A model generated the notes under the pieces. The model made no database searches. It was not told the origin of the DNA and saw only the letters and a list, made by a program, of their open reading frames with translations. Both the position numbers and the translations under genes were made by a program. A stretch of DNA of 64,000 nucleotides from Cinnamomum chago (taxonomy: Eukaryota; Streptophyta; Magnoliopsida; Laurales; Lauraceae): the NCBI GenBank assembly GCA_038049695.1, contig CP142452.1, positions 28,198,501 through 28,262,500 on the forward strand, in the 5' to 3' direction. Shown here piece after piece: positions 16,165 to 62,844 of the stretch; the stretch's first letter is position 1; every line of letters starts with the position of its first letter.

Positions 16165-16562
16165 GTGTGCTCGGTCGACCGAGCACACTAAAAACTGAGA
16201 GAAAACAGCTCCCAGTTATTTTTCCTGCAGAGATGACAGTCTAGTGTGCCAGGTCGACCGAGCCTTGCTCCCGGTCGACCGAGCACACAGGACCTGTTAT
16301 GAAAATGCTGAGAACTGGGACATCCCATTTACACAGAGTTTCAGTGTGCGCGGTCGACCGCCCAGGCCAGGAGGTCGACCGAGCACACGTGAAATCCCTG
16401 GGAATAGACCATGTCTCCCAGGTACAGATCCAATTTTTCTCAGTGTACCCGGTCGACCGACCTGCAGCCAGGTCGACCGAGCACACTGCACCAGGGTCGA
16501 CCTGGGGGTTAACCCCCAGTGTACTCGGTCGACCGAGCCCTGTGCCAGGTCGACCGAGCACA
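16165..16562. repeat. GTCGAC palindrome cluster, 5' LTR
   Basis: Ten GTCGAC cores lie within 400 bp. The first (16165-16188) is a perfect 24-bp palindrome containing CTCGGTCGACCGAG between GTGTG and CACAC. Later copies occur in pairs such as CCCGGTCGACCG...AGGTCGACCGAGCACAC, spaced 20-25 bp within a pair and about 80-100 bp between pairs. The cluster lies downstream of the TATA box and so in transcribed DNA. Confidence 0.9.
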
Positions 16563-24812: not shown

Positions 24813-27800
24813 ATGTCTGGAGGCGAGGCACCCCCTGAGGCGATAGCGATCGGCGATCAGTCCGGCCACAAGCGTCAATTTGAGAGGTTCCTTCAGGCCT
24901 TCCTTGCCGCTCAGGAGGCTCAGACGACTGCCCATCAGCAGCAGACAGAGGACTTTGCGCAATTTCAGGCGCAGGTCCTAAAGGTGATCGATAGGGTGGC
25001 CCCACCAGCCCCAGTGGACGTACCAGTTCGGGAGGCAGACCTGAACGTGATATTTGAGAGGTTTCTCAAGAGGGGACCGCCAGAGTTCACCAGCACAGAT
25101 GACCCCATGGTTGCGGACGACTGGATTGTCCGTATGGAAAAGATCTTTAGGGTCTTCGAGCGCTCTGGGCGCCAGAGAGTGCAGTTGGCAGCATACATGT
25201 TTCGTGGTGTGGCAGAGGACTGGTGGAGGATCATGCAGCGACCTTACGAGGAGATAGGAGATGAGGTGGCATGGACTGCTTTCAAGGTAGACTTCCTTAG
25301 GAAGTTTATTCCCACCCATGTCAGAGAACGTAAGCTCCGAGAGTTCCAGACTCTTGTTCAGGGCAGCATGACGGTCTACCAATACGAGCTCCGTTTCACT
25401 CAGCTGTCCCGTTTCGCTGAGGCGCTGCTTACGTCAGAGGCCGAGAGGGTTCGGCGGTTCGTTGATGGATTGAGAGAGGAGATCCAGATAACTATGACTT
25501 GTATCGAGCTACTTACCTACGAGGAGGCATTGAGGAGAGCTTACTGGGTAGAGGAGCATCTACAACGACTAAAGGCCATTCGCCAGCAGAAACGACTCCG
25601 GGTTGCCCCAGTCAGGCAGCAGCCCGTGATCCCGCAGCGACAGCCATTCCAGAGGCAGAGGCCACCAGGCCAGGTGGGGCGGTATCATCAGCAGCAGCAG
25701 CCTTACCGCGGACCTAGAGTGTGCTTCGACTGTGGTGAGCCGGGGCACATATCTAGGCACTGCCCACTCCGCGAGCAGCAGCCCCCGATGCTTCAGCTAC
25801 CAGCACCTCCAGGAGCTCTAGCTCCAGCCCCAGCTCCAATGGCTCAGCCAGCGCGTCAGGTTGCACTAGCACCTCAGCCGCAATACCGTGCACAACAGCA
25901 GGCACGCGCACCTCAGCAGCCCCGAGGATAGCAGTATCATCGAGGACATCATCAGAGACCCCATGGCCAGCAACACCAGCAACAGAGACCCCAGGCTGTG
26001 GGTCGAGCTTTCGCACTCACGCACAAGGATGCAGAGGCAGCAGGCAACGTGGTGGAAGGTACTCTTTCTATCAGTGATCATCTTGCTAGAGTGTTGCTTG
26101 ATCCAGGAGCGACACATTCGTATGTGTCGTCAGCTTTTGCTTTAGTCCTTGGTGGGATAGGCGAGGCTATGCCTTGTACGTTAGTTGTTTCCACCCCTAT
26201 GGGTAGGAGTGTGGTGTGTCGGACTTACCACCCCAGATGCCGAGTGCAGATTGAGGAGTGCATTTTGCTTACAGATCTGATCTTGCTACCCATGCACGAC
26301 TTCGACGTCATTTTGGGGATGGATTGGTTGGCTAGATATCGAGCGGTGATGGATTGCTTCGAGAAGACAGTCCGACTCATTATCGACGGTTCAGATGACT
26401 CGATCAAGTTTGTAGGCAAAAGGAAGCGGCCCAGCACCAAAGTGATTTCGGCACTGAAGGCTGAAAGATTGATGAAATCAGGTTGCGAAGGCTACATAGC
26501 GTTCATTTCGGAGGATAAGCCGACCAAGGGAGTAGAAGAGATCCTAGTTGTTTGCGAGTTTCCTGATGTGTTTTCCGACAAGATTCCAGGATTACCACAT
26601 GTTAGAGAGATCGACTTCACCATCGAGCTTGCGCCAGGCAAAGCACTGATTTCCAGAGCTCCTTATCGCATGGCTCCGGTAGAGCTACGAGAGTTGAAGA
26701 CCCAGCTGGAGGAGTTGCTAGACAAAGGCTTCATCAGACCGAGCGTGTCGCCATGGGGCGCACCAGTGCTCTTTGTGAAGAAGAATGATGGATCGATGAG
26801 GATGTGCATCGACTATTGGCAACTGAACCAGGCGACAATGAAGAACAAGTATCCTCTTCCTCGGATCGACGAGCTCTTTGACCAGCTCCAAGGTGCGCAG
26901 TACTTTTCAAAGATAGATTTGAGATCGGGATACCATCAGCTACGAGTCAGAGAGCAGGATGTGCAGAAGACAGCGTTCCGTTTACGCTATGACCACTACG
27001 AGTTCCTTGTGATGCCATTCGGATTGACGAATGCACCAGCAGTGTTCATGTCCCTGATGAACAACATCTTCGCTTCGTACCTCGACAGCTTCACAGTGGT
27101 GTTCATCGACGATGTGTTGGTCTACTCCAAATCCAGAGAGGAGCACAAGCAACTTTTGAGGACGACTCTACAGTTGTTGCGCGACAACCAGTTGTACGCG
27201 AAGTTTAGCAAGTGCGAGTTCTGGTTGGAACAAGTAGTTTTCCTCGGGCATATCATCTCTAAGAAAGGATTAGCAGTGATGAATTAGGCGAGACCGAAGA
27301 ATGCCACGGAGATTCGGAGTTTTCTCGGATTAGCAGGCTACTATCGCAGATTCGTCAAGAGCTTCTCCACGATTTCAGCCCCGTTGACCAGTTGACGCGA
27401 AAAGATGTGCCATTTGTTTGGACCGATGCTTGCGAGAACAGCTTCCAGGAACTGAATGAGAGATTGACGACAACACCGATCTTGTCTTTACCTACCGGTA
27501 GAGGTGGATTCGTAGTCTTCACCGACGCTTCAGGTATCGTCTTGGTTGTGTCTTGATGCAGGAAAGGAAAGTCATTGCCTATGGATCACGCAAGTTGAAA
27601 GAGCACGAGAAGAAGTACGCTACTCACGACTTGGAGCTAGCAGCGGTCATTTTTGCATTGAAGTTGTGGCGACACAATCTCTATGGGGAGAAATTCGAAG
27701 TGCATTTAGATCATCGCAGCTTGCAGTACCTATTCACTCAAAACGACCTCAACAACCGGCAAAGGAGATGGATGGAGTACATCAAGGATTACGACTTCCC

Positions 27801-29526
27801 TATCAAATACCACCCGGGTAAGGCGAATGTCGTAGCAGACGTTTTGAGCAGGAAGACCGCCCTCATTAGTTTCCTAGCAGCAGAGGGTGTGTGGACTGAC
27901 GTCTTCAGCAGCTTAGATGTCCAGTTTCAGCCGCTCAGCGAGAGAGTCTTGCTTGCTACCATGTCCGCATGGGAACCAGAGTTACTAGGAAAGGTCAAGG
28001 ACAGTCAACGCAACGATCCAAAGCTTGTCAAAGTGATCGAGCAAATTGACCAGAGGCCAGAGTTCAGATTGATTGGTGGAGTGCTCTACTATCAGGATAG
28101 ATTGTGTGTGCCGGATATTCAGGAGCTGAAGGACGAGATCCTAGCAGATGCACATCATAGCAGATACTCGATTCACCCCGGCAGCACCTAGATGTACCAG
28201 AACCTGAGGAGCTACTACTGGTGGAACAACATGAAGAAAGAGATAGCACGCTATGTCTCTAGGTGTTTGACGTGTCAGCAGATCAAGACCGAGCATCAAA
28301 AGCCGTTAGGACTACTTCATCAGCTCGACATACCCCAGTGGAAGTGGGAGCATATCACCATGGACTTCATCGCAGGACTCCCAGCTACCAGGAGACGCCA
28401 CGACGGCATTTGGGTGATTGTGGATCGACTGACTGAGTCAGCTCACTTCTTGCCAGTTTCGATGAAGGCAGGACTCGATGTCCTTGCTAAGCGGTATGTG
28501 GACAGGATTGTCTCATTGCACGGAGTTCCAGCCTCGATTGTCTCGGATAGAGACCCGCGTTTTACTTCCCACTTCTGGGAGAGTCTACAGCAGGCCTTGG
28601 GCACCAAGTTGAGTTTCAGCACCGCTTATCATCCTGAGACTGATGGACAGACCGAGCGTACCAACCAGACACTGGAGGACATGTTGAGAGCTTGTGTCTT
28701 GGACTACAAGGAGAACTGGGAAGATTCCTTGCCGCTTTGCGAGTTTGCCTACAACAACAGTTACCATTCGAGCATCAAGATGGCACCGTTCGAGGCTCTG
28801 TACGGAAGGAGATGCAAGACCCAGGTCTGTTGGGAAGAAGTTGGTGTCAGGAGTTTCCATGGACCATCCATAGTCAGTGACACCAGCGAGAAGGTTCGAC
28901 AGATAGTTGAGAACCTGAAGGTCAGCCGCAGCCGACAGAAGAGATATGCAGATAACCGGCGCAGACCTCTCGAGTTTCAGAAAGGAGACAAGGTATTCTT
29001 GAAGGTTTCCCCAGCCAGAGGTACCCTTAGGTTTGGCGAGAAGGGTAAGCTAGCACGGAGATACGTCGGACCGTTCGAGATCAGGTCAAGGATCGGAGAC
29101 ATTGCTTACAAGCTTCAGCTACCGCTAGAGCTATCAGGAGTGCACGATGTCTTTCATGTCTCTATGCTGAAGAAGTACGTGGAGGACCCTACGCACACTC
29201 TTTATCATCAGCCACTCAATATTCAGCCGGACGCTTCGTACATTGCCAGACCAATTGCTATCATCGACACCAAGGAGCAGGTGCTCCGGAACCGAACCAT
29301 CCATTGGGTAAAGGTTCAGTGGGAGCATCACACTCCGGAAGAGGCTACATGGGAGCTACGCGACCAGGTGGAGAAGGACTATCCACATCTTCTACCTCGG
29401 TATGTTCTAACTTTGTTTTTACATTTGGGGACCAAATGTTTTAAAAGAGGGAGTGATGTGAGGCCCCACCCCTTGTGGGCCCTCAATTTGATATTTGATT
29501 ACTATTTAATAATATTTATTAGCTAA
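24813..29526 (+). pseudogene. Tekay gag-pol polyprotein of the complete element, disrupted
   Basis: Gag reads from ATG 24813 to a TAG at 25929: capsid region, then zinc knuckle CFDCGEPGHISRHC. In the same frame come the protease ([13 protein letters not shown], about 26097) and RT ([11 protein letters not shown], catalytic FIDD) to a stop at 27287. RNase H ([19 protein letters not shown]) and integrase follow: zinc finger ending CLTCQQIKTEHQKP, core with MDFIAGLP, SDRDPRFTSHFWE and TDGQTERTNQTLEDM. The tail IHWVKVQWEHHTPEEATWE is chromodomain-like. Lesions are TAG at 25929, a 21-bp deletion plus TGG-to-TAG near 27285, one-base losses near 27392 and 27538, AAG-to-TAG at 28189, and a one-base loss near 29398 that carries the frame past the normal end into the LTR. 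It is non-functional. Confidence 0.94.
29437..29456 (+). other. Polypurine tract of the complete Tekay element
   Basis: AAAAGAGGGAGTGA directly precedes the 3' LTR start (TGTGAGG at 29457). It primes plus-strand synthesis in this retrotransposon class. Confidence 0.85.
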
Positions 29527-30102
29527 TTATCCTAATTAAGGGTTAGTAAGGGTAGTGATATATTTTCCTAAGTTGTGTTGATTAGTCTAGATGTATTAGA
29601 ATTAGGGTTATAGGGGTCTTTTGAAATTTCTAGGGTTAGTGAGTGGAGGCCCTATCTAGGTATTAGTGTTTTCTATAGGGGGGGTATTCCTAAAAGCACT
29701 CTTCTAGAACCTTCCCACCTAATGACCTAAAAGCCCTCTACCGTAACCCCAATCCCATACAAACATAAAGGGCATTTCAGTCCTTAGCCCAAACCCCTAA
29801 TCTATAAATATAGCCCATTTCCCAAGGCATCCCAAGCAACTATTCATCTTCTTCATTTCCCCTCTCCTTCCTCTCTCCTTTCTCTCTTCTAGACCTTTGA
29901 TCTGAGTTGGTTTTGTGCTTGTGGAGACCCAAAGAGCTGGGATTTTCTTCTAGTTGGATTGGCATTCTTTCTTCTCTCTCTCTACAACCTTCTATTCCAA
30001 ACAAGGCAAGTGCAATATACTGATCTAACATAGAATGTATGTTTCCAATTTCATTGATTCCATTCAGTTAATGTAAATCTGTAGATCTAACCTTGAGCTT
30101 AG

Positions 30103-33100
30103 TATAGAGTATTGCACTTGCCTTGTTTGGAATAGAAGGTTGTAGAGAGAGAGAAGAAAGAATGCCAATCCAACTAGAAGAAAATCCCAGCTCTTTGGGT
30201 CTCCTCAAGCACAAAACCAACTCAGATCCTAGGTCTAGAAGAGAGAAAGGAGAGAGAGGAAGGAGAGGGGAAATGAAGAAGATGAATAGTTGCTAGGGAT
30301 GCCTTGGGAAATGGGTTGTATTTATAGATTAGGGGTTTGGGCTAAGGACTGAAATGCCCTTTATGTTTGTATGGGATTAGGGTTAGGGTAGATGGCTTTT
30401 AGGTCATTAGGTGGGAAGGTTCTAGAAGAGTGTTTTTAGGAATACCCCCCAATAGAAAACACTAGTACCTAGATAGGGGCTCCACTCACTAACCCTAGAA
30501 ATTTCAAAAGACCCCTATAACCCTAATATTAATACATCTAGACTAATCAACACAACTTAGGAAAATATATCACTACCCTTACTAACCCTTAATTAGGATA
30601 ATTAGCTAATAAATATTATTAAATAGTAATCAAATATCAAATTGAGGGCCCACAAGGGGTGGGGCCTCACATCACTCCCTCTTTTAGAACATTTGGTCCC
30701 CAAATGTAAAAACAAAGTTAGAACATACCTGAGGTAGAAGATGTGGATAGTCCTTCTCCACCTGGTCGCGTAGCTACCATGTAGCCTCTTCCGGAGTGTG
30801 ATGCTCCCACTGAACCTTTACCCAATGGATGGTTCGGTTTCGGAGCACCTGCTCCTTGGTGTCGATGACAGCAATTGGTCTGGCAATGTACGAAGCGTCC
30901 GGCTGAATATTGAGTGGCTGATGATAAAGAGTGTGCGTAGGGTCCTCCACGTACTTCTTCAACATAGAGACATGAAAGACATCGTGCACTCCTGATAGCT
31001 CTGGCGGTAGCTGAAGCTTGTAAGCAACGTCTCTGATCCTTGACCTGATCTCGAACGGTCTGACGTATCTCCGTGCTAGCTTACCTTCTCGCCAAACCTA
31101 AGGGTACCTCTGGCTGGGGAAACCTTCAAGAATACCTCGTCTCCCTTCTGAAACTCGAGAGGTCTGCGCCGGTTATCTGCATAGCTCTTTTGTCGGCTGC
31201 GGCTGACCTTCAGGTTCTCAACTATCTGTCGAACCTTCTCGCTGGTGTCACTGACTATGGATGGTCCATGGAAACTCCTGACACCAACTTCTTCCCAACA
31301 GACCTGGGTCTTGCATCTCCTTCCGTACAGAGCCTCGAACGGTGCCATCTTGATGCTCGACTGGTAACTGTTGTTGAAGGCAAACTCGCAAAGCGGCAAG
31401 GAATCTTCCCAGTTCTCCTTGTAGTCCAAGACACAAGCTCTCAACATGTCCTCCAGTGTCTGGTTGGTACGCTCGGTCTGTCCATCAGTCTCAGGATGAT
31501 AAGCGGTGCTGAAACTCAACTTGGTGCCCAAGGCCTGCTGTAGACTCTCCCAGAAGTGGGAAGTAAAACGCGGGTCTCTATCCGAGACAATCGAGGCTGG
31601 AACTCCGTGCAATGAGACAATCCTGTCCACATACCGCTTAGCAAGGACATCGAGTCCTGCCTTCATCGAAACTAGCAAGAAGTGAGCTGACTCAGTCAGT
31701 CGATCCACAATCACCCAAATGCCGTCGTGGCGTCTCCTGGTAGCTGGGAGTCCTGCGATGAAGTCCATGGTGATATGCTCCCACTTCCACTGGGGTATGT
31801 CGAGCTGATGAAGTAGTCCTAACGGCTTTTGATGCTCGGTCTTGATCTGCTGACACGTCAAACACCTAGAGACATAGCGTGCTATCTCTTTCTTCATGTT
31901 GTTCCACCAGTAGTAGCTCCTCAGGTTCTGGTACATCTTGGTGCTGCTGGGGTGAATCGAGTATCTGCTATGATGTGCATCTGCTAGGATCTCGTCCTTC
32001 AGCTCCTGAATATCCGGCACACACAATCTATCCTGATAGTAAAGCACTCCACCAATCAATCTGAACTCTGGCCTCTGGTCAATCTGCTCGATCACTTTGA
32101 CAAGCTTTGGATCGTTGCGTTGACTGTCCTTGACCTTTCCTAGTAACTCTGGTTCCCATGCGGACATGGTAGCAAGCAAGACTCTCTCGCTGAGCGGCTG
32201 AAACTGGACATCTAAGCTGCTGAAGACGTCGGTCCACACACCCTCTGCTGCTAGGAAACTAATGAGGGCGGTCTTCCTGCTCAAAGCATCTGCTACGACA
32301 TTCGCCTTACCCGAATGGTATTTGATAGGGAAGTCGTAATCCTTGATGTACTCCATCCATCTCCTCTGTCGGTTGTTGAGGTCATTCTGAGTGAACAGGT
32401 ACTGCAAGCTGCAATGATCTGAATGCACTTCGAATTTCTCCCCATAGAGATAGTGTCGCCACAACTTCAATGCAAAAACGACCGCTGCTAGCTCCAAGTC
32501 GTGAGTAGCATACTTCTTCTCGTGCTCTTTCAACTGGCGTGATCCATAGGCAATGACTTTCCCTTCCTGCATCAAGACAACCAAGACCGGTTCCTGAAGC
32601 GTCGGTGAAGACTACGAATCCATCGCTACCGGTAGGTAAAGACAAAATCGGTGTTGTCGTTAATCTCTCCTTCAGTTCTTGGAAGTTGTTCTCGCAGGCA
32701 TCGGTCCAAAAAAATGGCACATCTTTCCGCGTCAACTTGGTCAACGGAGCTGAAATCATGGAGAAGCTCTTGACGAATCTGCAATAGTAGCCTACTAATC
32801 CGAGAAAACTCCGAATCTCCGTGGCATTCTTCGGTCTCGCCCAATTCATCACTGCTTCTATCTTCGCTGGGTCCACTGCTAATCCGTTCTTGGAGATGAT
32901 ATGCCCGAGGAAAACTACTTGTTCCAACCAGAACTCGCACTTGCTAAACTTCGTGTACAACTGGTTGTCGCACAACAACTGTAGAGACGTCCTCAAATGT
33001 TGCTCGTGCTCCTCTCTGGATTTGGAGTAGACCAACACATCGTCGATGAACACCATTGTGAAGCTGTCGAGATATGGAGTGAAGATCTTGTTCATCAGGG

Positions 33101-33272
33101 ACATGAACACTGCTGGTGCATTCGTCAATCCGAACGGTAACACAAGGAACTCGTAGTGGCCATAGCGTGAACGGAACACTGTCTTCTGCACATCCTGCTC
33201 TCTGACTCGTAGCTGATGGTATCCCAATCTCAAATCTATCTTTGAAAAGTACTGCGCAAAAATCACAAGGGC
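30103..33272 (-). mobile_element. Antisense Tekay pol plus LTR fragment inside the 3' LTR
   Basis: Minus-strand piece of a Tekay element: RT from QYFSKIDL (33257) through RNase H, integrase and tail (to about 30700), polypurine tract, then the first 562 bp of an LTR (30671-30110). Neither end is a retrotransposon terminus. Short unmatched stretches lie at both junctions (30103-30109 and 33258-33272), and no target duplication is visible. With the plus-strand copy it forms arms 26895-30017 and 30110-33257 separated by 92 bp. This fits rearrangement or break repair rather than integration. Confidence 0.9.
30690..33257 (-). pseudogene. Partial Tekay RT-RNase H-integrase (antisense fragment)
   Basis: RT begins mid-domain at about 33257 and keeps [17 protein letters not shown] and the [11 protein letters not shown] segment deleted from the plus copy. 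A frameshift near 32588 separates it from the next open stretch (32584-31076), which holds RNase H ([19 protein letters not shown]), the integrase zinc finger and the core with SDRDPRFTSHFWE. A one-base loss near 31085 (GEK...KLARRY) and a GAG-to-TAG at 30774 break the integrase C-terminus and chromodomain-like tail. Its lesions differ from those of the plus copy, so the two copies have decayed independently. Confidence 0.92.
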
Positions 33273-33455
33273 ATTGATGGATGGGATTCTCCCATTTGGA
33301 AGATCAATGGCCCGTTTGGTGTTTGAATGGAGGTACATTGAAGTGTTTTTGTGTTTTTTAATGCTTTAGTAATGATTGGGCAAGATTGGAGGTGGTTAAA
33401 TGGAAAAATGGGTTGAAAGGAAGAAACCCTGAAAACTGGGTTTTCTACAGTTTTG

Positions 33456-49396: not shown

Positions 49397-49553
49397 GGGG
49401 AAACTACCTGAAAAATCCCCCTAGGACGCCCGAAGTAAGGAGAGAACCCAGCATTATTTTAGTGACGGGAGGGGTCCTTTGGGTGGGTTTCTTTATTTTC
49501 TTTTGTCGTTTAGTGAGGTTGTCGATATCGACAATATAGTTGTCGATATCGAC
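49397..49553 (+). repeat. Left terminal region of the MULE with TTGTCGATATCGACAA motifs
   Basis: Terminal repeat from 49397. The 16-bp palindrome TTGTCGATATCGACAA is at 49519-49534 and a second, TTGTCGATATCGAC, is at 49540-49553. Candidate promoter and transposase-binding region by position; there is no direct evidence. Confidence 0.75.
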
Positions 49554-49726
49554 TAGTATGTGAAAACCTTTTATACATCGCCCCATGTCTTCATTTCTTT
49601 GTCAGAACATTTTCATCGTCTGTAACAAGTGCTCTGCCGAATTTCCTTCTAAAAAAACAGCTCAAAAATTACTCCAAGTGGTGGTTCGATTCCATTAATA
49701 GGTTGGTACCCACATTAAACACCTTC

Positions 49727-50253
49727 CTATATTGCATCATCTACCCTAAAATGTCATTAGTTTGATTCCTTTTCAGTAATGATTTCTTTCAGTTGTGTTC
49801 TGAACCAAAAAATGAGCCATTTGAAAACTGTACCAGTTGTGTAAATGCATATTTGTATGTAGCTTTGCTTGAAGATTACCATTTGTGTGGTAAATATCAA
49901 TTTCGTTTTGTGCTTCGTTAATATCACTTTCGTTTTGGGTTTTTAGGTTTTGAAAAGGGGTTTCTTTTTTGTAGGCACTGTTTTTCTCTATATTGCATCA
50001 TCTACCCTAAAATGTCATAAGTCTGATTCCTTTTCAGTAATGATTTATTTCAGTTGTTGTCTGAACCCTAAAAGGAGCCATTTTAATACTATACCAGTTG
50101 TGTAAACACATATCTGTATATAGCTTTGCTTGAAAATTACCATTTGTGATGTAAATATCAATTTCGTTTTGTACTTGGTTAATATCACTTTTATGTTGGG
50201 TTTTTTAGGGTTTGAAAATGAGTTTATTTTTTGTATGAACTGTTTTTCTCTGT
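49727..50253. repeat. About 261-bp tandem duplication in the MULE 5' region
   Basis: Two copies starting CTATATTGCATCATCTACCC at 49727 and 49988, diverged by scattered substitutions. They lie between the left terminus and the transposase ATG and could hold the transposase promoter or leader. Confidence 0.85.
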
Positions 50254-50424
50254 TGTGTTCTTTCAGTAAGTGACACTTAGTATAGTTTCATTATGTTCAA
50301 ATAAGGCACAACATGGGCATTTTAACAGTGGATAATGGTTTAGAAATATATACTTGCTCTGTCTTTATAAATGTTTTGAACTTTCGTATTTCTTTAACCA
50401 AAGTTCTTGTGATTTGACAATAGC

Positions 50425-52987
50425 ATGTCAGTGAGCGAGGTGTTGGTCATATTCCACTATGATGGTGACTTCCAATTCGATATAATCCATCCGGTGTACA
50501 ATGGAGGAAATCAAAAGATGAGATATTTACCGACGGATATAACATATGACTCACTGGTTAACGAAGCAACTGAAGCATCTAATTGGAATTCATCCATTCG
50601 GAGATTAAGCATACAATACCTTCATCACAATGGACGGGCATTTTCAATGGCAAGCATCGATGACGACAATGATGTGAAGAGAATGTTCAAAGCATCGGGG
50701 AATGATGTGAATGGGATATATCTATATGTCTTCAAAGATACTAAAAACCGGCAAAGTATAGGAGGAGAACAATGGAGGTATGTGCATAGGTTCTATCAGT
50801 AAATCAATAGATTACCAAAAACTAAGTATGTCTTCCTAGTTGCTTATTGTCCTTTGTTGATTCATTGTAGGTATGAAAAGAACGTTCGAGGTCAAAACTG
50901 TGCAAAAAAAGTGAGGATCCCGTGTAGAACTTGTACGAGAAACCATGGCATAGAGCCAACGCCCGCTACAGAGCTGCCTACCGTTGATCTACATCCATTT
51001 CCCTTATGTGAGTAATGAATGCAGTCCACATCAGGCTGCAGTACAAGATGATGTTATTGATGATATTGACATTGGAACAAACAGTCATGATGAAATTCAT
51101 TCCGATGAACATACTGCCATCGGACAGATTCGTCGAATCCCAAATGTGAAGGTCGAAAGCAATGGTGTCGAGGTCAATCTAGTTAACACTGCAAATTGTT
51201 CAAATCAAACTTCAGTTGTTGATTTTGAAGACAGAATGGAGCCTGAGGAGGTGAACACGGAGGTTGGTAATAACTCGGCTAAGGAAATGTGGGTTGGCCG
51301 TGAGTTCCCTGATCGTCAGACATTTCGGAATACTCTTGCCAAGTTTGCAATTTATGCCAACTTTACTCTTAAACACCTGAAGACCAACTCGACCAAGGTG
51401 ACAGCTGGCTACAAAGATCTGGGTTGTCCTTGGCGGATCCATGCTTCTATTGTAGAATCAGGATCATAATTTAAAGTTAGAACATACAATCCTAACCACC
51501 GATGCTCGAAGCCATTGATGGGCATGGCACATCGACAGGCAACTTCGGCCCTTATTTCTGAATTCATCATGGATAGAGTCCTACAGAACGTAGATTTAAA
51601 GCCGAAGGAGATAATGAACGACTACCAAATGGAATTTGGGTCGACCATCAGCTATAGGAAGGCACTTATAGCAAAGGATTTGGCTCTGCGTATTGTGCGA
51701 GGATCATACGAGGAATCCTTCCAGCTTCTGCCTCTCTACTGTATTGATTGAAGAAAACCAACCCTGACACAATAACAAACATAGACACCACGTCTGATGA
51801 CCGTTTCAGAAGGTTTTTTTTTAGCATTTGGACCCTGTATAAGGTCTTTCACGTCTTCGCTAAGACCGATGATTGCTGTAGACGGTACACATCTACGAGG
51901 TAAGTATCCTGGTGTCTTGCTTGTAGCCGTGACATACGATGCGAATCATAAGCTACTACTCATCGCCTTTGCCTTTGCGGAAGCAGAACGGCGTGATAGT
52001 TGGGAGTGGTTTCTTGCGAACTTATTCATAGCGGTTGGAGAACCACCCAATTTGACCATTGTTTCAGATTGTCAGAAGGGTCTTATTCCAGCTCTCCATA
52101 ACACTATACCCTCCGCAGTGCATTGCTACTGTTGCCGTCACATAGCTGAAAATATCAAAACCGCTTTCAGTGACGGCGCAATCGTTATGAAATTCTGGCG
52201 TGCCGTAAAGTCCTATAAGCCTTACGTTTATGAGGCATACATGACGGATATACGTGCAGTCAGCGAAGAGGCTTTCAGCTACATTGAGGCAATTGGGAGG
52301 CAGCATTGGGCAAATGCATACGTGCAAGGCCGTCGATATGACATGCTAACTAGTAATGCGGTTGAGTGTACTAACAGCCTGTTAAGGGACACAAGGGTAC
52401 TGCCTATTGTAAAACAGGTCGAGGAGATACGTGCCAAGTTAATGGAGTTCTATCAAAAGCGTCATCTTCAGTTAGAGAGTGTAACTACTCGTCTAACTCC
52501 GTATGCGGAAAAAATCTTGAGCCAAGAAATGGAGGAAGCACGCAGGGTTCATGTACGTGTCGCTGGCCTGGTCAAATTTCAAATACAATCCGCAGAGTAC
52601 GTGGACGTAGTCGATCTCAAACGCAAAACTTGTACATGTTGTAAATGGGAGATTTTGGGCCTCCCATGTTGTCACGCACTTGCATCAATGAAGGTAAGGA
52701 ACTATGATCCATATAAGTTTTGCGAGCATTGGTACCTATCAAGCGTTTATCGTGCAACGTATAATGAAGTTCTACATGCTACCCGGGACAGCAAGCAATG
52801 TGAATACACAATTGAAGAAAGAGTTCTTCCACCACGAGCAAGTAAACAACCAGGGCGTCCTAAAAAGAACAGGATTCGTACCGAAAATCGTGGCCTCCAA
52901 CGAAGGGTAGTTACCTGCTCCAATTGTAAAGAGAGGAGGCATAACCGTGGAGGTTGTCGCAATCCTCCACGTGATATGAATTGTTGA
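50425..52987 (+). pseudogene. MURA-type (MuDR) transposase gene of the MULE, disrupted
   Basis: Exon 1 (50425-50777) starts MSVSEVLVIFHYDGDFQFD; a GT-AG intron follows and exon 2 starts at 50871. The MuDR N-terminal domain (MWVGREFPDRQTFRNTLAKF, CPWRIHAS) lies at 51286-51455. The MULE transposase core (PMIAVDGTHLRGKYPGVLLV, then IVSDCQKGLIPALHN, with two catalytic-type Asp) is at 51860-52110, a SWIM zinc finger (CTCCKWEILGLPCCHALA) at 52632-52690, an AT-hook-like PGRPKKNR, and a C-terminal CSNCKERRHNRGGC knuckle. Lesions are a frameshift near 50990, a TAA at 51467, a frameshift near 51748 and one more in the T run at 51813-51820. The domain order is complete, so decay is recent compared with other repeats here. 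Confidence 0.92.
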
Positions 52988-53010
52988 TTCAAGATAAATG
53001 ATGTAAATGG

Positions 53011-53367
53011 ATTGTTCAAAGCTTGAACAGTACATGGTTTTTTCTTGGGATTTTGGTGTAAATGGGTTCCATTGGAGAATTGAATATTGCAGTTATTTTT
53101 TTGGTACAGTTTGTGATGTAAATGGGTTGTTCAAAGCTTGAACAGTGCATTGCCTTTTTTTGGGGTTTCTTGTGTAAATGGGTTCCATTGGGGAATTGAA
53201 GATTGCAGTTATTTTACTGGTACAGTTTGTCATGTACATGGGTTGTTCAAAGCTCGAACAGTGCAGTTCTTTTTTGTTTTTTTTTTGGATTTTGGTGTAA
53301 ATGGGTTCCATGGGGAATTGTAGATTGCATTTATTTTTGTGGTCCGATTTGTGATGTAAATGGGTTC
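53011..53367. repeat. About 115-bp tandem array (three copies) after the transposase stop
   Basis: Units start at 53011, 53126 and 53242 with (A/G)TTGTTCAAAGC(T)TGAACAGT, a short palindrome (GTTCAAAGCTTGAAC), and continue to TGGGTTCCATTGGGGAATTG. The array begins 24 bp after the transposase stop, so it lies in the 3' UTR or terminator region. Confidence 0.88.
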
Positions 53368-53519
53368 CTAGAAACTGTTCGAACGTGAATGAATGGTGAT
53401 ATATATGGGGTTTATATACATTTAGATTATTGTATCCATGTTGTCCTTATTAAGTAATTCCTTCTGTTCAAAATTATGAAATGCAAACATTCCTGTAGCT
53501 GTCAGGAACGAAACTGACA

Positions 53520-54345
53520 TTTCAAAACTAGTCGATATTGTCAGTATCGATAGATTTTTTACATTCACAGATGATTACTTACAACTTTTATTTCAGTCAC
53601 CTGACAAAACTAGTCGATACTGACAACTTCAATCTGTCGATATCGACAACTTTGATACATTCCAGCAGCTGATTACTTACAACTTTTAATTCGGCCATCT
53701 GACGAAACTAGTCGATACTGACAACAAAAAGTTGTCGTTATCAACAGCTTTGATACATTCCAGCAGCTGATTACTTACAACTTTTAATTCGGCCTTCTGA
53801 CGAAATAAGTCAATACTGACAACAAAAAGTTTTCGTTATCGACAACTTTTACACATTCCAGCATCTTCTTAGTTACAACTTTTAATTCGGCCTTCTGACG
53901 AAACTAGTCGATGCTGACAACCAAAAGTCGTCGTTATCGACAACTTTTATACATTCCAGCAGCTGATTACTTACAACTTTTAATTCCTGCCTGACGAAAC
54001 TAGTCGATACTGACAACCAAAAGTTCGACAACTTTTATACATTTCAGCATCTGATTACTTACAACTTTTAATTTAGATGCCTGACGAAAGTAGTCGATAC
54101 TGACGACCAAAAGTTATCGTTATCGACAACTTTTATGCATTCCAGCATCTGATTACTTACAACTTTTAATTCAGACGCCTGACGAAAGTAGTCGATACTG
54201 ACAACTTTTGGTTGTCGTTATCAACAACTTTTATACATTCCAATCCACATAGAGTTATAACTTTTATTTCAAAACATTAACAGACCTAGTCGATACCGTC
54301 AACTTTAAGTTGTCGATATCGATGAGTTTTATACATTACAAGACG
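53520..54345. repeat. About 100-bp tandem array with GTCGATA/GACAAC motifs (about eight copies)
   Basis: Each unit has CTGACGAAACTAGTCGATA, then CTGACAAC...GTTGTCGTTATCGACAAC and CATTCCAGCA(G/T)CTGATTAC. Units start about every 85-107 bp (near 53602, 53698, 53798, 53893, 53990, 54075, 54179). The inner inverted motif is a diverged form of the subterminal TTGTCGATATCGACAA. The array lies exactly between the two convergent genes of the MULE. Confidence 0.9.
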
Positions 54346-54703
54346 TACTTGCTTCTATAATTCAACCCACCAAATTGGCATACAATATTTAGGATCATTA
54401 CAGCAACCATCATCATCTCCCTGCAAAATTAAGTATTGGACTCCTTTAATGATCACCCCAAACATGGCATGAACCCCACCACCATCAATCCCACCACCAT
54501 ACAGACTCTAAGTGGAACCCAAAGCATCCCAAATTCAATAAACTGCTATTCAACCATTCTAAACCATAACATGCATTCAACCATTCTATTGTCCAACAAC
54601 AAAAGGATTATATATACAATTAATATTCATTTTGCACAATGGGCAAAAAATAAAGTTTGCGAGAATCAATAAAAAGTTTTGCACAATGTCTTCTTGAGTT
54701 AAG

Positions 54704-57700
54704 TCATGGGAAGTCACTTAAGTCAGTCAACCCCAGTCTGTTGGCATTAAATCGCCAGCTCCTTTTGAATATCTCTACGACGATTTTGCTGCAAAAATAG
54801 GGAATGTCTTCTTGGGTGAAGCTGATGCTATGGCGGTGCACATAGTGTTCCATGAAAGACATTGCAAATACTCCACAGTCATTTCCATTTTGCTGACGAG
54901 GGATGCCATCCTTTACAAGCCAACCCCAAAGGTAAGGGTCTGACCATCCAAATTGGCTATATCTTTCATTCAACCATGCAACCTGCGTGATCCATTATTA
55001 CAATGCACTTTTAGATTAAGAATAGTATATGTTTACGCCAATAGGCAGATGCATATGATGCGGAATTTGGAAAAGTTATGATGTTTTAGGTAACATAACA
55101 TACAAATTTCGATGCGTGCTTTACCGATCGCCGATCGCCAGCCAAGCTATTGTAGAACTCCCATCGTTTCTCATCAACCAATCCGACAAGCAAGGAAAAA
55201 TGTGATCGGTGATAGACTATAAAGATAAGCGTGCGTGTTTCCCTAGCGTCCCACACCCTATGTCCATGCTTCCCAAATACAGCTTCCACAGCAGAATCAG
55301 AACCATCCGACCACCAACTCTGCAAGTAAAATTGAGGACATAGTCAGCTACAGCCTATAACTGGAAATACACTTACTAGTATGCTCCTCTTTCACAACTA
55401 TTGACTTACACAGACACTTGGATCAGCGATAAAACATGTATCACATTCATCCCGTAATATTTCAAAATAGTAATACATGACATTAGTGTCCATCCAAGTC
55501 CCTTCTTCAAGAACCTTCTTCAGATCCGAGCTTGAGATCATTGTGCAGATGCTATCCAACTCATCATTCCTATAACAAATCACAAACAAGCACTTAAGAA
55601 TCTTATGTTTTTATTTGATATTTCAGAGTTTTCAAAAGCATTATGTATTAAATAAAAAACATATGCAGGATTGTTATCAACTTATACTTGAGCTGGAAAA
55701 TGTTGCAAAGAGGAGCTGCAATGGCAGGGTTGCGAAAGAAATTGCTTTGGCACTGAAATGGTTATTTTGCTCTGCTTTGTATTGCATTTTACAGCTCATT
55801 GATAAACATAGAGAAGTCCTTAATGAAGCCAAGGAAGAATATAACAAGCTAAAGAAGGCAATAGATGAGTCACGAACTGCTGAGGTTCTGTTCACATGAA
55901 GACACACCATTTGATTTTTGAACTTCATTACCTTGTAATTGGTCAGTGATAAAAAAGCACTTCCTGTTAATCTTCAGGTTGATACAGAATATAAGTTACA
56001 ATATTTAAAAAAGCTCTCTATATAAGTTACAATATTTACATACAGAATACAGAATATAAGATACAGAATAAAGGAATGGGAAGTGAAGGGAAAGGGATAC
56101 AGGAAAAGGCTTGATGACTTAAAAGTTGATCTCATGAAACAAATTGAACAGTAAGATTCCTCAGAGTATTAATCAGTATTAATAGCACGAGATAGTTTAT
56201 TAATCAGCATGATTTTCACCATCATCATAAAAAAGGTCATAAATAGAGAAAAACAGAGTGTAAGATGAGAGTGACAACTTTGACTGAGTAATTCAGGTTT
56301 AGTGGGAATGATTAGCTAAGAAAACTTGATACCCTCTCGGCATCTAATTGGGATAAAATAATGAACAAATAAAAGCTTGAATATGCTACAGAATAGGGGT
56401 TGCTGACAATATCTGAAGTTCTCTTATCTCCAGATTATTATTTATCATTATTAATTAAGCACAATATATGATTTCTTACCTTTCCTCGTAGTATTCTTTG
56501 AATCCCTTGAGAAAGTACTTATCAAGGTCGCTCAGCACGTAACTGCTGTGAACTATAGAATGAGCATAATCTTTAAACTTCATCGGTATTTTGCGCATAC
56601 GAGGCAGCTGTTTGATCCTCCACAAAAGTGAGTCGAGTGTAGCGAAGGGGGCTGAAACAACCAAAGCGGACTCACTGGATACTGGGACTGGAGAGGTGAA
56701 CAATGTTCTGCTAACTGAAGGGGTACCGAGTACTTCTTCGATTGGTGGTGCTTCCGGAGAGTGAGGCCAGCTGATAGAACCGTCTGTTATACACTGTTGG
56801 ACTGGTTCGACATCAACTGGTGTTGCACTCCTCTTGGCACTTTTCTTTATCCCCGGACTCTTCACAGCAGCTCTTTTCCGATGTTTAAACGTTATTGTCA
56901 CCTTCTTCTTGACATCCTCTTCATCGGATTGCGAGCTACTACACCCATCCAACTTAAAGTCCTCAAATGTTGTCCCAAAGGCACCCTTAAATTTTGTCGA
57001 TTTCTTCCGGATTGATGTTGTGAGCTTCTCAATAGACACTTTCCGGCATTCCGCTCTATCACAGGAGCGCTCTAAACGAGCCACAAGATCCTCCGCCTGA
57101 AAATTCAACGCACACATATTCATTTATCATGTCATTATGAGCAAGGCAAATGTATTAATGATGAATTGAAAATATGTTTAATGGAGGGTCATTAGCAATG
57201 ACTTAATGGAGTGATTTTAGACATACATGCTTAATTGGGATGGTGCTTTCGTCCGGTTTGGCGATCTCCTCCGCTTGGCTATCCTCCATATGGTCCATCT
57301 GAGCTGACCTCCCAATAAACTTTTGTGTGTTTTCACCATACCATAACAAATACTCATCGGAATGTGCTTTCAGCTTACACTTCTCCCCATGTAGAACAAG
57401 TTGGGCTCTAGCAGCCCACAATCCAGCTACCTCCTCATCCAACTGCGTGCTGTAGTCAACCACAACATACCATGTTCGTTCTCGTTTGACAAATGGCATA
57501 TTGAATGGTGGTGGCACCAACTGTTTGAATCCGAACTGCTTCATAACACGCCACGTATTATGTCGTTCCACGATCCAATAATAGACAAGGACGGTGGACG
57601 ATGAAAACAGAGCACGATCAACTTTCCGCACCTTCTCAACAAACTTTTTACCGTATCCCCGATAGGGTTGCCAGTTGAACTGCATACGACATTATTTACA

Positions 57701-58909
57701 CAAAATTAGCAGGTTTCTACAGTCAGTATAGTATTTGTATAAAAGAATACATCAGGATTTAAAAAATGGAAAAAAGAACTTTTTACATTACCCCATCAGC
57801 CTTCAGATTTTCAACTGCTTTCTAACTTCTTTCACTGTTGCAAGAGCTGGTTGTTCTTTAAGCCTCTTCTGCCAGGTCTTAAACAATGGAAACTGTATAT
57901 CCTTTTTCCACGTTTCGGCCGGTTTAGGACACCGCCCGATCGACAACCTAGTGTAAGCCCATAACTGAACCATTCCAAAAAAAATTTATAGGTTATATAA
58001 GATTGAAGAAAATAAGCTACACCAAAACTCCAAAATGTAGTTGTTTAGATGGCAGACTGGACAATGTGTAAAGAATGAGAACAAGGACCTGTAACAGCTG
58101 AAGAGGCCCGGTGGGTGTCCTGAGTTGGTGTCCCTCTTCCTCTCCGTGTACATTATTCCCCTCCTTTCCCTGTTCATCCTTCCCCTTCTCTTCTACCCCT
58201 TCTCTTCTCCTTATTCCACCGAGTAGCGTTTGCTAACATCCTATAAAGATTCGCAAGACAAGCCGGTGCCCAGGCGTACGGTTTAAAATCTTTAAACAAC
58301 TCTAGCAGATAGACAGGGCCTCGGGCACCAGAAGTTTGCGAGATGATTTGACCGGACAAAAGTCATGCCGACGAAGTCAACCTTCTTTTGTGGGGTAATA
58401 CCGAGCAACTCCTGACATACTGTTTGAACTAACCTCCCTGGGAAAGTTCGACCGATTACTAGGTCCCCATCAATGGGTAGACCGTATATATAAGTCACGT
58501 CCTCAAGTGTTATAGTGGCTTCTCCGGATGGAAAATGGAAAGTATTTATTTCAGGACGCCACCTCTCTACCAATGCAGTGATTAACGCGTGGTCTATGAC
58601 CATACGACTTATCTCTGCCAAATAATGGAGACCCGTCTGCCTAACATATTCCTTCTGGGTGTTTGTAAGCCCCCATATTGCTGCGTCCGGGTTTGTTGGG
58701 ATGCACCTGAGGCGACCGAACTCCTGCTAGTATCAAGCATTACAAGGCTAGTTAGGAATCATACACTAAAAGGAAATACATTACTGATTGAGAAAGTTAA
58801 GGAAGTAAGTCTATATGTAGTTACAATATACCTCTCCCTGACGAATTCCTTCCGATATATGATTTTGTTGGTTATATAGGAGAACTTTCGGAGCCTCGGC
58901 GGTCTGTTT
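54704..58909 (-). pseudogene. PMD-Ulp1 (C48 protease) gene of the MULE, multi-exon, damaged
   Basis: Inferred exons with GT-AG borders are about 58909-58832, 58723-58089, 57964-57792, 57679-57227, 57096-56480, 55569-55410, 55319-55125 and 54982-54704. The plant mobile domain comes first: LYNQQNHISEGIRQGE, ITALVERWRPEINTFHFPSG, TLEDVTYIYGLPIDGD, FKPYAWAPACLANLYRML and FNWQPYRGY. A basic, Ser-rich linker follows (57096-56480). The protease comes last: EEGTWMDTNVMYYYFEIL, FIVYHRSHFSLLVGLVDE (catalytic His) and PRQQNGNDCGVFAMSFMEH (catalytic Cys after the oxyanion Gln). C48 enzymes remove SUMO or related tags; the substrate here is unknown. Frameshifts near 58355 and 57830 break the PMD, and the usual acidic triad residue reads Asn (WEFYNSL). 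The upstream start is not identified. Confidence 0.85.
55659..56150 (+). other. Coding-like segment in the long intron, possible captured host exons
   Basis: Plus strand, antisense to the protease gene and inside its 0.9-kb intron. After an acceptor-like TATGCAG, 55669-55899 reads DCYQLILELENVAKRSCNGR ... DKHREVLNEAKEEYNKLKKA, helical and coiled-coil-like. A second piece, 56074-56150, reads EWEVKGKGYRKRLDDLKVDL and ends at a GTAAG donor-like site. Exon-like borders and protein-like composition suggest a captured gene fragment, as MULEs often carry. I do not recognise the source protein. Confidence 0.4.
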
Positions 58910-59109
58910 TGCTGTCGTCTGCAAAGTAACAAACGTAACAATTAGTACATTGGAGACATGACGATAATTGGAGATTTCTTTTGTTATTATCATGTATTAT
59001 TGTGGATTTGTTTGAGATTCTCAGATCTTGTGCATTAGAAGCAGATCTGTTTCTGCACTGCAAGCTCTAGTTTCTGCAGTCCCTATCATAGCCTTCTCCA
59101 CTTCATCTT

Positions 59110-60823
59110 CCAGTAGAAAATTCGTAACTTCCTCTTCTGAACTCGAAACAATATGATTCTTGATCCAAATGAAAGATTTATCAGAGGGCTACAACTTTCA
59201 TGTTTTGAGATTTAACCCAGTTTGAAAGGAAAGTAGTGTAAAATCACCTTGAATCTGACTGGTTTGAGAAAAACAGCAACCTGCTGAGTGAAGCAGAGTT
59301 GTCTCCAGTAGAAAATTCATAACTTTGTCTTCTGAATTCGAAACAACATGATTCTTGATCCAAATGAAATATTTATCAGAGGGCTCCAACTTTCATGTTT
59401 TTATATTTAACCCATATTGAATGGAAAGTAGTTTAAAATCACCTTGAAGCTGACTGGTTTGAGAAAAACAGCAACCTGCTGAGTGAAGCAGAGTTGTCTC
59501 CAGTAGAAAATTCATAACTTCCTCTTCTGAACTTGAAACAACATGATTCTTGATCCAAATGAAAGATTTATCAGAGGGTTACAACTTTCATGTTTTTAGA
59601 TTTAACCCAGATTGAATGGAAAGTAGTGTAAAATCACCTTGAAGCTGACTGGTTTGAGAAAAACAGCAACCTGCTGAGTGAAGCAGAGTTGTCTCCAGTA
59701 GAAAATTCATAACTTCCTCTTCTGAACTCGAAACAACATGATTCTTGATCCAAATGAAAGATTTATCAGAGGGATACAACTTTCATGTTTTTAGATTTAA
59801 CCCAGATTGAATGAAAAGTAGTGTAAAATCACCTTGAATCTGACTGGTTTGAGAAAAACAGCAACCTGCTGAGTGAAGCAGAGTTGTCTCCAGTAGAAAA
59901 TTCATAACTTCCTCTTCTGAATTCGAAACAACATGATTCTTGATCCAAATGAAATATTGATCAGAGGGATACAACGTTCATGTTTTTATATTTAACCCAG
60001 ATTGAATGGAAAGTAGTGTAAAATCACCTTGAAGCTGACTGGTTTGAGAAAAACAGCAACCTGCTGAGTGAAGCAGAGTTATCTCCAGTAGAAAATTCAT
60101 AACTTCCTCTTCTGAACTTGAAACAACATGATTCTTTATCCCAATGAAATATTTATCAGAGGGCTACAACTTTCATGTTTTTAGATTTAACCCATATTGA
60201 ATGGAAAGTAGTGTAAAATCACCTTGAAGCTGACTGGTTTGAGAAAAACAGCAACCTGCTGAGTGAAGCAGAGTTGTCTCCAGTAGAAAATTCATAACTT
60301 CCTCTTCTGAACTCGAAACAACATGATTCTTGATCCAAATGAAAGATTTATCAGAGGGCTACAACTTTCATGTTTTTAGATTTAACCCAGATATAATGTA
60401 AAGTAGTGTAAAATCACCTTGAATCTGACTGGTTTGAGAAAAACAGCAACCTGCTGAGTGAAGCAGAGTTGTCTCCAGTAGAAAATTCATAACTTCCTCT
60501 TTTGAACTCGAAACAACATGATTCTTGATCCAAATGAAATATTTATCAGAGGGCTACAACTTTCATGTTTTTAGATTTAACCCATATTGAATGGAAAGTA
60601 GTGTAAAATCACCTTGAAGCTGACTGGTTTGAGAAAAACAGCAACCTGCTGAGTGAAGCAGAGTTGTCTCCAGTAGAAAATTCATAACTTCCTCTTCTGA
60701 ACTCGAAACAACATGATTCTTGATCCAAATGAAAGATTTATCAGAGGGCTACAACTTTCATGTTTTTAGATTTAACCTAGATTGAATGAAAAGTAGTGTA
60801 AAATCACCTTGAAGCTGACTGGT
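59110..60823. repeat. 195-bp tandem array, about 8.8 copies, in the MULE
   Basis: Units start CCAGTAGAAAATTCATAACT at 59110, 59305, 59500, 59695, 59890, 60085, 60280, 60475 and 60670, with period 195 and only a few differences between copies. The unit contains AACAACATGATTCTTGATCC and GGTTTGAGAAAAACAGCAAC. Because 195 is divisible by 3, the minus strand shows the same 64-codon frame ended by one TGA in each unit; I regard this as a consequence of period length rather than genes. The array lies upstream of the PMD gene. Confidence 0.96.
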
Positions 60824-61288
60824 CACCTATAACCCAGATTAATTTGGCGTTCTAGGAAAGAGACACACTCTTTTTTTTAATATTTTATTTTTGCTGCTTC
60901 AATTGTGAAAGTGGTATATAAACAATGCATACAGGAGTAAAATTTCAGTCACAAATCCTTATAGTTATGAAACAGAGAATTCAGTCAATTCAGGAATTTA
61001 GGAATTCTCAGGCAAGAATTCAGGCATAAAAGAAACAAGGAATTTAGAAATGACAGAATTCAGTAGCATTTCAGAATTCCAGCATTTGAAAATCCCAGAC
61101 AACCACCAGACATGAATTCCTGGAATTCTAGGAAAGAAACGGGCCCATAGGCATATGTTTTTGGCATGCCCTAAAGAGTTACGTTTGGGTTATATTAAGA
61201 GTATTTATGATAAGCATAATAAGTGAGCAATGTAGTATGTTAATTTCATAGTTGTGTTATGTTCGTTTTGGTCATTTGATGTATAGGG
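60824..61288. other. MULE interior without recognised genes
   Basis: AT-rich, with repeated AATTCAG and GAATTC-type words near 60990-61130 (for example GAATTCAGTCAATTCAGG). No coding signal is supported. Confidence 0.45.
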
Positions 61289-61716
61289 CACTTCAAGAGA
61301 TTGATGTTGCAAGAGCCAAGATGGAGTGGAATACTAAAGAGGACTTAATGCTCACAGAAATTGCCGGACAGTTGCAATAGCCTACATGGAAGGGAGGGCC
61401 TGCAACTTGATGCAAGTGGTGGGGGTAGCAAATGGAAGGAGTGGATGTCATGGGTGAAAGTAATGGGATTAGCAGGAAGTAATGGGATGCTACTGTTGGC
61501 ATGGGGTGGAAATGTTGTTCATGACATGTTCCAAAGTTTGGTGACATTTTGGCAGTTGATAGAATATCCATCATTGGTGAAGCAATGATACTTATCAATT
61601 TGTTCATTTCTGGTAAGGAGGTGCTGAATGCTAGAGTAATTTTGATGGTGATTGATGAGAGATTTGAAATTTGGTGGTTAGAAGTTCAAATTGAAGATCC
61701 TAAAAATGTTGCATAG
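61289..61716 (+). other. Coding-like fragment, unidentified, inside the MULE
   Basis: After a possible acceptor (GATGTATAG at about 61280-61288) the plus strand reads ALQEIDVARAKMEWNTKEDL and MLTEIAGQLQ before TAG. Another frame further on reads LNARVILMVIDERFEIWWLE. The composition looks like protein, but stops and frame changes are frequent. It may be a decayed captured gene piece; I do not recognise the family. Confidence 0.28.
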
Positions 61717-61749
61717 AAAGATCAAACGGGAGAAAGATGAAAGTCACTG

Positions 61750-62035
61750 TCACTTCAGGTCAGTCTTTAAGCAGAGATTTTCAATATGTAATCAGACAAT
61801 CAGACACTTCAAGTCAGTCTTTAGGCAGAGACTACATTTTCAGTATGTAATCAGACAATCAGAAGAAATAAAAAGGGAAATTTTCTTGATGGTTCTGTCA
61901 CTTCAGGTCAGTCTGTAGGCAGAGATTTTCAATATGTAATCAGACAATCAGACACTTCAGGTCAGTCTTTAGGCAGAGACTACATTTTCAGTATGTAATC
62001 AGAAGAAATAAAAAGGGAAAATTTTCTTGATGGCC
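61750..62035. repeat. About 145-bp tandem duplication built from half-units
   Basis: GTCACTTCAGGTCAGTCTTT followed by AGGCAGAGA...ATGTAATCAGA occurs four times in two larger copies (starting near 61750 and 61896). Each larger copy has two half-units and ends in GAAATAAAAAGGGAAA. Confidence 0.85.
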
Positions 62036-62718
62036 TAAGTCCGTGGTATGGATCAACCATGAATATATAATGGGAAAAATACCAATTAGTGGCTACCATA
62101 ATTATTATTGACTCAATAAAAGCAATCTAAATATGGCCATTATTGCAAGAAGACTTGTGAAAAGAAGGAATACTCACATAACAGAAACCTAGATCTAGTA
62201 ATTGAGTATTAAAAGGGTTTGAAAAAAAACAAAAAAACGAACTGAGTCTTTAACGTCTCTGTGCATTGAGAGGGTTTGAAAAAAATAAAAAAAAACTCTT
62301 CTCAGTTGGGTAACAATGCCATATAATCCCTTTTTTTCTTCAGAAAACCCAATCAACAAACCTAATCAGTCAAAATCACTATGGGTTCGTTTAATATGGA
62401 GATTGGGTTTCATGTTAAAGAACAGTGGAAGAAAAAAAATGAACTTCCATTCTCGAACCAATGCAGGAAAAAAAAAAAAACGGAATCTCTGTTTAAACCG
62501 AATGCAAACAAGAGAAAATGATTAGAATACATACCTCCATGTGCTTGCCAACTGTGTATAACCTTTGAAAGAAGGCGCCAAACGATGCTTGGGACCACTA
62601 CTAGGGACCAGCGAAATGGAAAGTTGTTGACAGCAACTGTGGAAGAGGGAAAAGGAAAAAGGAAGGTGACAAAATGGGGAAGAAGGGGTTTCTTGCGGTT
62701 AATGGAAAACCGCAATTA

Positions 62719-62844
62719 TTGTCGATATCGACAACACCAAAAACCATCTAAAAAAAGAAAGGAAGGGGCCCTCAGTGTATTAACTCCTACTGGGCCGTCC
62801 AACTGCACCTAGCTCACTATGGGGCTTTTTCCCGTAGTTTCTCC
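62719..62844 (-). repeat. Right terminal region of the MULE with TTGTCGATATCGACAA
   Basis: The palindrome is at 62719-62734, 110 bp from the right end, mirroring the left end (122 bp). Similarity to the left terminal region includes the GGGG(T/C)CC(T/C)TT and TTTCTTT stretches between the palindrome and the end. Confidence 0.75.

Follow-up and report, generated by a model that had tools for sequence, protein, structure and literature searches.

A decayed Mutator-like element of Cinnamomum chago with convergent transposase and PMD-Ulp1 genes and a palindrome common to its ends and an internal array

The role of the Ulp1 and PMD genes carried by plant transposons is an open question. The present analysis concerns a 13,448-bp Mutator-like element (MULE) at positions 49397-62844 of a stretch of 64,000 nucleotides from Cinnamomum chago contig CP142452.1 (the window), in which a transposase gene faces a gene for a PMD and Ulp1 domain protein and a 16-bp palindrome is common to the two termini and an array in the middle. 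VANC proteins are described as binding short motifs in the noncoding tandem repeats of VANDAL elements (PMC5735166, PMC10398659), with VANC21 recognizing a 9-bp motif in such repeats (PMC5735166), and Ulp1-bearing VANCs (KIU) are said in a review to act likewise (PMC13317346). PMD proteins borne on transposable elements are suspected of anti-silencing (PMC5418596, PMC8616336). Kaonashi (KI) and VANDAL elements are described as lacking terminal inverted repeats (TIRs), and VANC proteins as carrying DUF1985 (PMC2528002, PMC5735166).

With the KI-MULEs and the Ulp1-bearing VANDALs of Arabidopsis, the window family shares an Ulp1-type protease gene running in reverse to the transposase, and noncoding motif arrays are reported for VANDALs (PMC2528002, PMC5735166, PMC13317346). 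In contrast to these non-TIR elements with their DUF1985-bearing VANC, it possesses TIR-like ends, a PMD and a palindrome located also at the ends; the absence of TIRs that characterizes KI-MULEs and VANDALs does not apply to it, and its exons matched PMD and not DUF1985 in Pfam. The likeness to Kaonashi/KI-MULE elements drawn in the earlier note stands for the Ulp1 gene opposite the transposase, fails for the TIR-like ends and the PMD, and is retained as an analogy only. A short motif particular to the family and concentrated in noncoding tandem repeats, as in VANC-type anti-silencing systems, was found; in such systems an element protein is further expected to bind the motif and to demethylate DNA. 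MULE-borne PMD-C proteins of grasses and Amborella likewise place a PMD, with a suggested anti-silencing role, on a MULE; there it is described as fused to the transposase, whereas here it lies on the opposite strand, in line with the Ulp1 domain (PMC5418596). Ulp1-bearing MULEs of grape, melon and rice also combine a transposase with an Ulp1 domain in direct or reverse orientation, whereas neither a PMD nor a palindrome shared by ends and array is described for them in the portions available of PMC2528002, in the text of which the word PMD does not occur. Within the accessible parts of the open-licence full-text literature, no MULE combining a PMD-Ulp1 gene with a shared end and array palindrome was found. 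A parallel from another superfamily is En/Spm (CACTA), in which a short motif repeated in both subterminal regions is bound by an element-encoded protein, TNPA; here, by contrast, the motif is palindromic and additionally forms a mid-element array.

The element, its family and the shared palindrome

The element is bounded on both sides by TAAATCTAA, and 23 of the 30 outermost bases agree between its inverted ends, the highest value among 12,145 exact 9-mer pairs spaced 1-25 kb apart within the window. Alignment of 220 bp from each end scored 75 (maximum of 33 in 500 shuffles), the match being weak past 28 bp. Since TAAATCTAA occurs eight times in the window, the word alone is weak evidence; six of these occurrences fall within the 195-bp array in minus orientation, probably by chance plus array copying. 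This six-fold recurrence spans 59596-60774. Cores resembling GGGGAAACTAC are inverted at both ends, in the window copy as well as in the alignments of 30 copies, and in five of eight fetched left-end loci, those starting at the terminus, the flanks diverge up to GGGG. Target duplications of about 9 bp are typical of MULEs, and TIRs are not present in all of them. Next to TIRs, a MULE-type DDE transposase, a Mutator DNA-binding domain and a SWIM finger were detected (Pfam, all above cut-off). The element represents a decayed member of a plant MULE family that has TIRs and a convergent pair of genes; its earlier description as a Mutator-like element with 9-bp duplications is borne out by the flanking words, the matched ends and the Pfam domains.

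Further copies were sought in the 1.06-Gb host genome, 40 of 153 left-end and 40 of 76 right-end candidates being scored; only best-scoring copies were examined, which favours young ones. For 31 of the 40 left ends, a right end in inverted orientation was located 6.1-27.2 kb away; nine left and nine right ends remained unpaired. Among 30 of the 31 pairs inspected, target duplications were exact over 9 bp in 18, matched at 8/9 in seven and at 7/9 in two, and fell lower in three; mismatched pairs yielded three exact and 21 8/9 matches among 870, i.e. 24/870 against 25/30 true pairs at 8/9 or better. The duplications are AT-rich and different in nearly all copies. Copies with ends elsewhere had been named in the earlier note as evidence against these boundaries: 25 of the 30 pairs are duplicated at 8/9 or better directly outside the same end cores, the other five are not.

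Fifteen sites matching the palindrome TTGTCGATATCGACAA with up to three mismatches were identified in the window, every one inside the element (chance expectation 0.23). Counts of palindromes, arrays and genes in the family rest on 20 whole copies, the window copy included. In all 20, the palindrome starts 121-132 bases from the left and 103-123 bases from the right end; left ends carry one to four sites in 21-bp steps, about two helical turns, and right ends a single one. Internally, 19 of the 20 copies contain 7-15 sites, nearly all within the 98-bp array, the units of which carry paired degenerate palindromes 23 bp apart. Among 12-mers common to both ends (at least 8/20 copies), or to one end (at least 10) and the middle (at least 5), only pieces of TTGTCGATATCGACAA were common to both ends and the middle at these thresholds; one unrelated 12-mer is shared by right end and middle only. 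Genome-wide, 162 exact copies of TTGTCGATATCGACAA were counted versus none of the reversed control. Conservation of the right palindrome ranks 5th of 185 windows and that of the second left one 20th of 186 (30 copies each). The right palindrome was found in 34/34 ends (30 large, four small), and the second right-end dyad, TTGCGGTT-N7-AACCGCAA, has its CGGTT/AACCG core intact in 30 of these. Array site A also ranks high, a value biased by anchoring. The core palindrome letters were not found alongside transposon terms in open-licence full texts.

Four short elements of 2196, 3682, 3658 and 2200 bp, each with exact 9-bp duplications, retain both end palindromes and several array sites. No BLAST match to the DNA-binding, MULE and SWIM regions or to the PMD was obtained in any of them. 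About 120 bp of the Ulp end are kept in all four, and the 3.7-kb pair additionally keeps a 450-bp stretch with most of the first transposase exon. Ends of the large and the small group are 84 % (left) and 83 % (right) identical, the palindrome being identical at 16/16 positions on both sides. These short relatives (L069, L070, L071 and L072) fall into two size classes of about 2.2 and 3.7 kb.

The two convergent genes

The tail-to-tail layout of two genes proposed earlier was recovered in the window copy. On the plus strand, DBD_Tnp_Mut, MULE and SWIM domains confirmed its MURA-type transposase; matches to both PMD and Peptidase_C48 on the minus strand confirmed its PMD plus Ulp1 coding capacity, the Ulp1-domain gene being oriented opposite to the transposase. 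The PMD is spread over two exons, with frame changes within these exons of the window copy (by eye). PMD and protease probably belong to one protein, judging by strand, order and splice signals recognized by eye. When joined, the Ulp exons gave a match to SENP1 (E 3e-9) in which His, Gln and Cys align with the SENP1 active site; among the 16 copies with data, 15 have this Cys.

In the transposase, the in-frame stop at 51467-51469 is private to the window copy (CAA in 18 of the 19 others, not found in one), and frame losses near 51749 and 51814 were seen by eye. Coverage of both genes was scored on blocks excluding the PMD middle and the broken spots of the window copy. Transposase blocks are covered to at least 96 % in 17/20 copies and to 40-86 % in three. 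For the PMD-Ulp1 blocks, coverage is at least 99 % in 15/20 copies and 10-44 % in five; the earlier note asked whether the PMD-protease gene is kept in all large copies, and these blocks are not whole in all of them. In each of the 19 other copies, one gene or both are damaged by a stop, a frame shift or a large loss, the zero defects of the window copy in this count being due to construction. Relatives of the transposase or the PMD exon were not found in viral contigs.

Nonsynonymous (N) and synonymous (S) changes shared by at least three copies were compared with those in one copy. For PMD-Ulp1, 22N/24S shared changes stand against 259N/117S singletons (p 0.007), and for the transposase 32N/21S against 322N/150S (p 0.28). 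With CpG sites omitted and the cut-off shifted, six settings gave p 0.0004-0.0074 for PMD-Ulp1 and 0.14-0.81 for the transposase; within PMD-Ulp1, p was below 0.05 for the Ulp part in five of six settings, for the linker in one and never for the PMD part. The tests are not independent of one another, and their results could be obscured by gene conversion. The excess of synonymous shared changes points to purifying selection acting on the coding blocks of PMD-Ulp1.

Readings of the palindrome and the second gene

The favoured reading, with a probability of about 0.42, is that the palindrome would be a docking site through which PMD-Ulp1 acts as a family-specific anti-silencing or activating factor, i.e. 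a VANC-like, motif-directed helper. The palindrome would represent a putative dyad site, bound by a dimeric protein that the element itself encodes, and the PMD-Ulp1 protein, probably nuclear, is favoured as its reader because of the analogy with VANC proteins, which bind short motifs in noncoding tandem repeats. PMD-Ulp1 may gather on the array and the element ends and perhaps strip SUMO from silencing factors bound at the sites; the element thus opened would allow the transposase to be expressed and to reach the ends, and relatives without enzymes would benefit by keeping the sites. A broader version is rather unlikely: that TIR-bearing MULEs evolved a sequence-specific anti-silencing of their own, separately from VANDALs, with PMD-Ulp1 recognizing the CpG-containing palindrome in the termini as well as in the mid-element array and possibly sensing site methylation. 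The family offers a 16-bp sequence as candidate target, signs of selection on its second gene, and short relatives that retain the sites but not the enzyme domains, so that what Ulp1 and PMD genes do in plant transposons can be addressed through assays of binding and methylation; if true, the favoured reading could extend motif-directed anti-silencing beyond VANDALs.

Several observations weigh against a PMD-Ulp1 docking site. Copy C1_123235623, itself whole, has no internal array sites. Array site B ranks only 48/83 within the 98-bp unit (129 units) and the first left palindrome 65/186 windows (30 copies), no excess being evident in the former and no clear excess in the latter. Stretches of 16 bp in which the large and the small group do not differ at all are by no means exceptional (9/134 left, 26/163 right), and the short elements were picked from 50 listed palindrome places for their clustering of sites, so that array retention in 4/4 is biased upward. 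DUF1985 was not found in the genome among the 150 of 400 candidates scored, in a search in which no positive control scored. The Peptidase C48 (Ulp1) active site consists of His, Asp, Gln and Cys, and protease activity of the Ulp1 domain is uncertain, since Asn replaces the aligned catalytic Asp of SENP1 in 16/16 copies. Moreover, the case for the transposase as reader is almost as strong, and a site at transposon ends would as easily be a transposase site.

The last point leads to a tentative alternative, which we hold as possible, in which the palindrome is the transposase's own site near end cleavage and the array a transposase sink or auto-regulatory site, PMD-Ulp1 helping otherwise, e.g. 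by altering SUMO marks on host factors. A Mutator-type DNA-binding domain is present in the transposase, and the palindrome sits at an almost constant distance from each end in all 20 large copies and stands at both ends of 4/4 small relatives; most sites, however, lie mid-element and far from the ends in 19/20 copies, and right ends carry one site as compared to one to four at left ends. Improbable is that palindrome and array serve a host factor in the space between the convergent genes, e.g. as transcription terminator, insulator or enhancer. Such a function would suit the position of the array between two 3' ends and the commonness of tandem arrays in the family. Among the 50 exact sites listed of the 162 in the genome, 16, which count against the favoured reading as well, lie outside scored ends and fetched elements (five at no more than 25 kb from such an end), whereas 34 fall in scored element ends or fetched small elements. 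Least probable, and disfavoured, is a PMD-Ulp1 gene captured from the host as a role-less passenger next to an array of neutral repeat DNA: much of the gene is lost in 5/20 copies, MULEs capture host DNA, as the 820-bp segment described below may show, and the motif is not excessively conserved inside array units, yet all examined blocks are kept in 15/20 copies, with an excess of synonymous shared changes, and the array in 19/20.

Feature coordinates, captured segment and neighbouring sequence

Coordinates of the features are compiled in Table 1. Four internal tandem arrays had been noted earlier; more than four were counted, namely 261-bp (two units), 116-bp (three), 98-bp (eight) and 195-bp (nine) arrays plus 59-bp repeats among others in the window copy.

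Table 1 Features of the element in window coordinates
Feature	Position	Strand	Basis
Left 9-bp target duplication TAAATCTAA	49388..49396	.	Flank comparison
Left terminal repeat core (GGGGAAACTACC...)	49397..49424	+	End-match scan, copy alignment
Left subterminal palindrome TTGTCGATATCGACAA	49519..49534	+	All 20 copies, up to 3 mismatches
Second left palindrome, one mismatch, 21 bp further on	49540..49555	+	Motif scan
261-bp tandem duplication, upstream of transposase	49727..50251	.	Period 260-261 in 15/20 copies
Transposase gene, at least 2 exons, broken	50425..52987	+	Pfam; frame by eye
DBD_Tnp_Mut domain	51287..51451	+	Pfam E 3e-12
MULE transposase domain	51872..52153	+	Pfam E 2.6e-18
SWIM zinc finger	52610..52690	+	Pfam E 8.8e-8
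116-bp tandem array	52999..53366	.	Period 113-118 in 19/20 copies
98-bp tandem array, between two 3' ends	53555..54341	.	Seen in 19/20 copies
PMD-Ulp1 gene, frame-broken within PMD	54704..58919	-	Exon model inferred by eye
Ulp1/C48 protease exons	54704..55571	-	Peptidase_C48 Pfam match; SENP1 alignment
~820-bp segment in PMD-Ulp1 intron between linker and Ulp exons	55610..56432	.	Copy alignment
Lysine-rich linker exon, stretch resembling a nuclear localization signal (NLS)	56476..57103	-	NLS by eye
PMD C-terminal part (profile 238-346)	57338..57682	-	Pfam E 2e-11
PMD N-terminal part (profile 1-100)	58337..58633	-	Pfam E 2.2e-25
195-bp tandem array, upstream of PMD exons	59109..60823	.	12/20 copies
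59/148-bp repeats	61751..62020	.	Repeat scan
Second right-end dyad	62693..62715	.	End alignment
Right subterminal palindrome TTGTCGATATCGACAA	62719..62734	+	Motif scan, end alignment
Right terminal repeat core	62817..62844	-	End-match scan, copy alignment
Right 9-bp target duplication TAAATCTAA	62845..62853	.	Flank comparison

Besides the window copy, eight others contain the 820-bp segment entirely or partly, six lack it and five are without the region; its carriers form one side of a 100/100 tree branch (eight carriers versus six non-carriers, five rows ungrouped). The segment may be captured host DNA, and the place C2:98770000, which matches window positions 55599-55762 at 93 % and holds an intron-exon border in this match (by eye), may be its donor. 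Exon-like stretches on the opposite strand were observed in the segment, which is limited to one subfamily.

Elsewhere in the window, reading frames of long terminal repeat (LTR) retrotransposons were recognized by eye. A perfect 24-bp palindrome, GTGTGCTCGGTCGACCGAGCACAC, locates at 16165-16188 near copia-type LTR retrotransposon frames, and 24813-33365 harbours two sets of gypsy-type reading frames, oppositely oriented, in which the protein sequence is partly near-repeated. The runner-up of the end-match scan, at 16362 and 33654, has CCAGGCCAG flanks and 22 of 30 matching inverted end bases.

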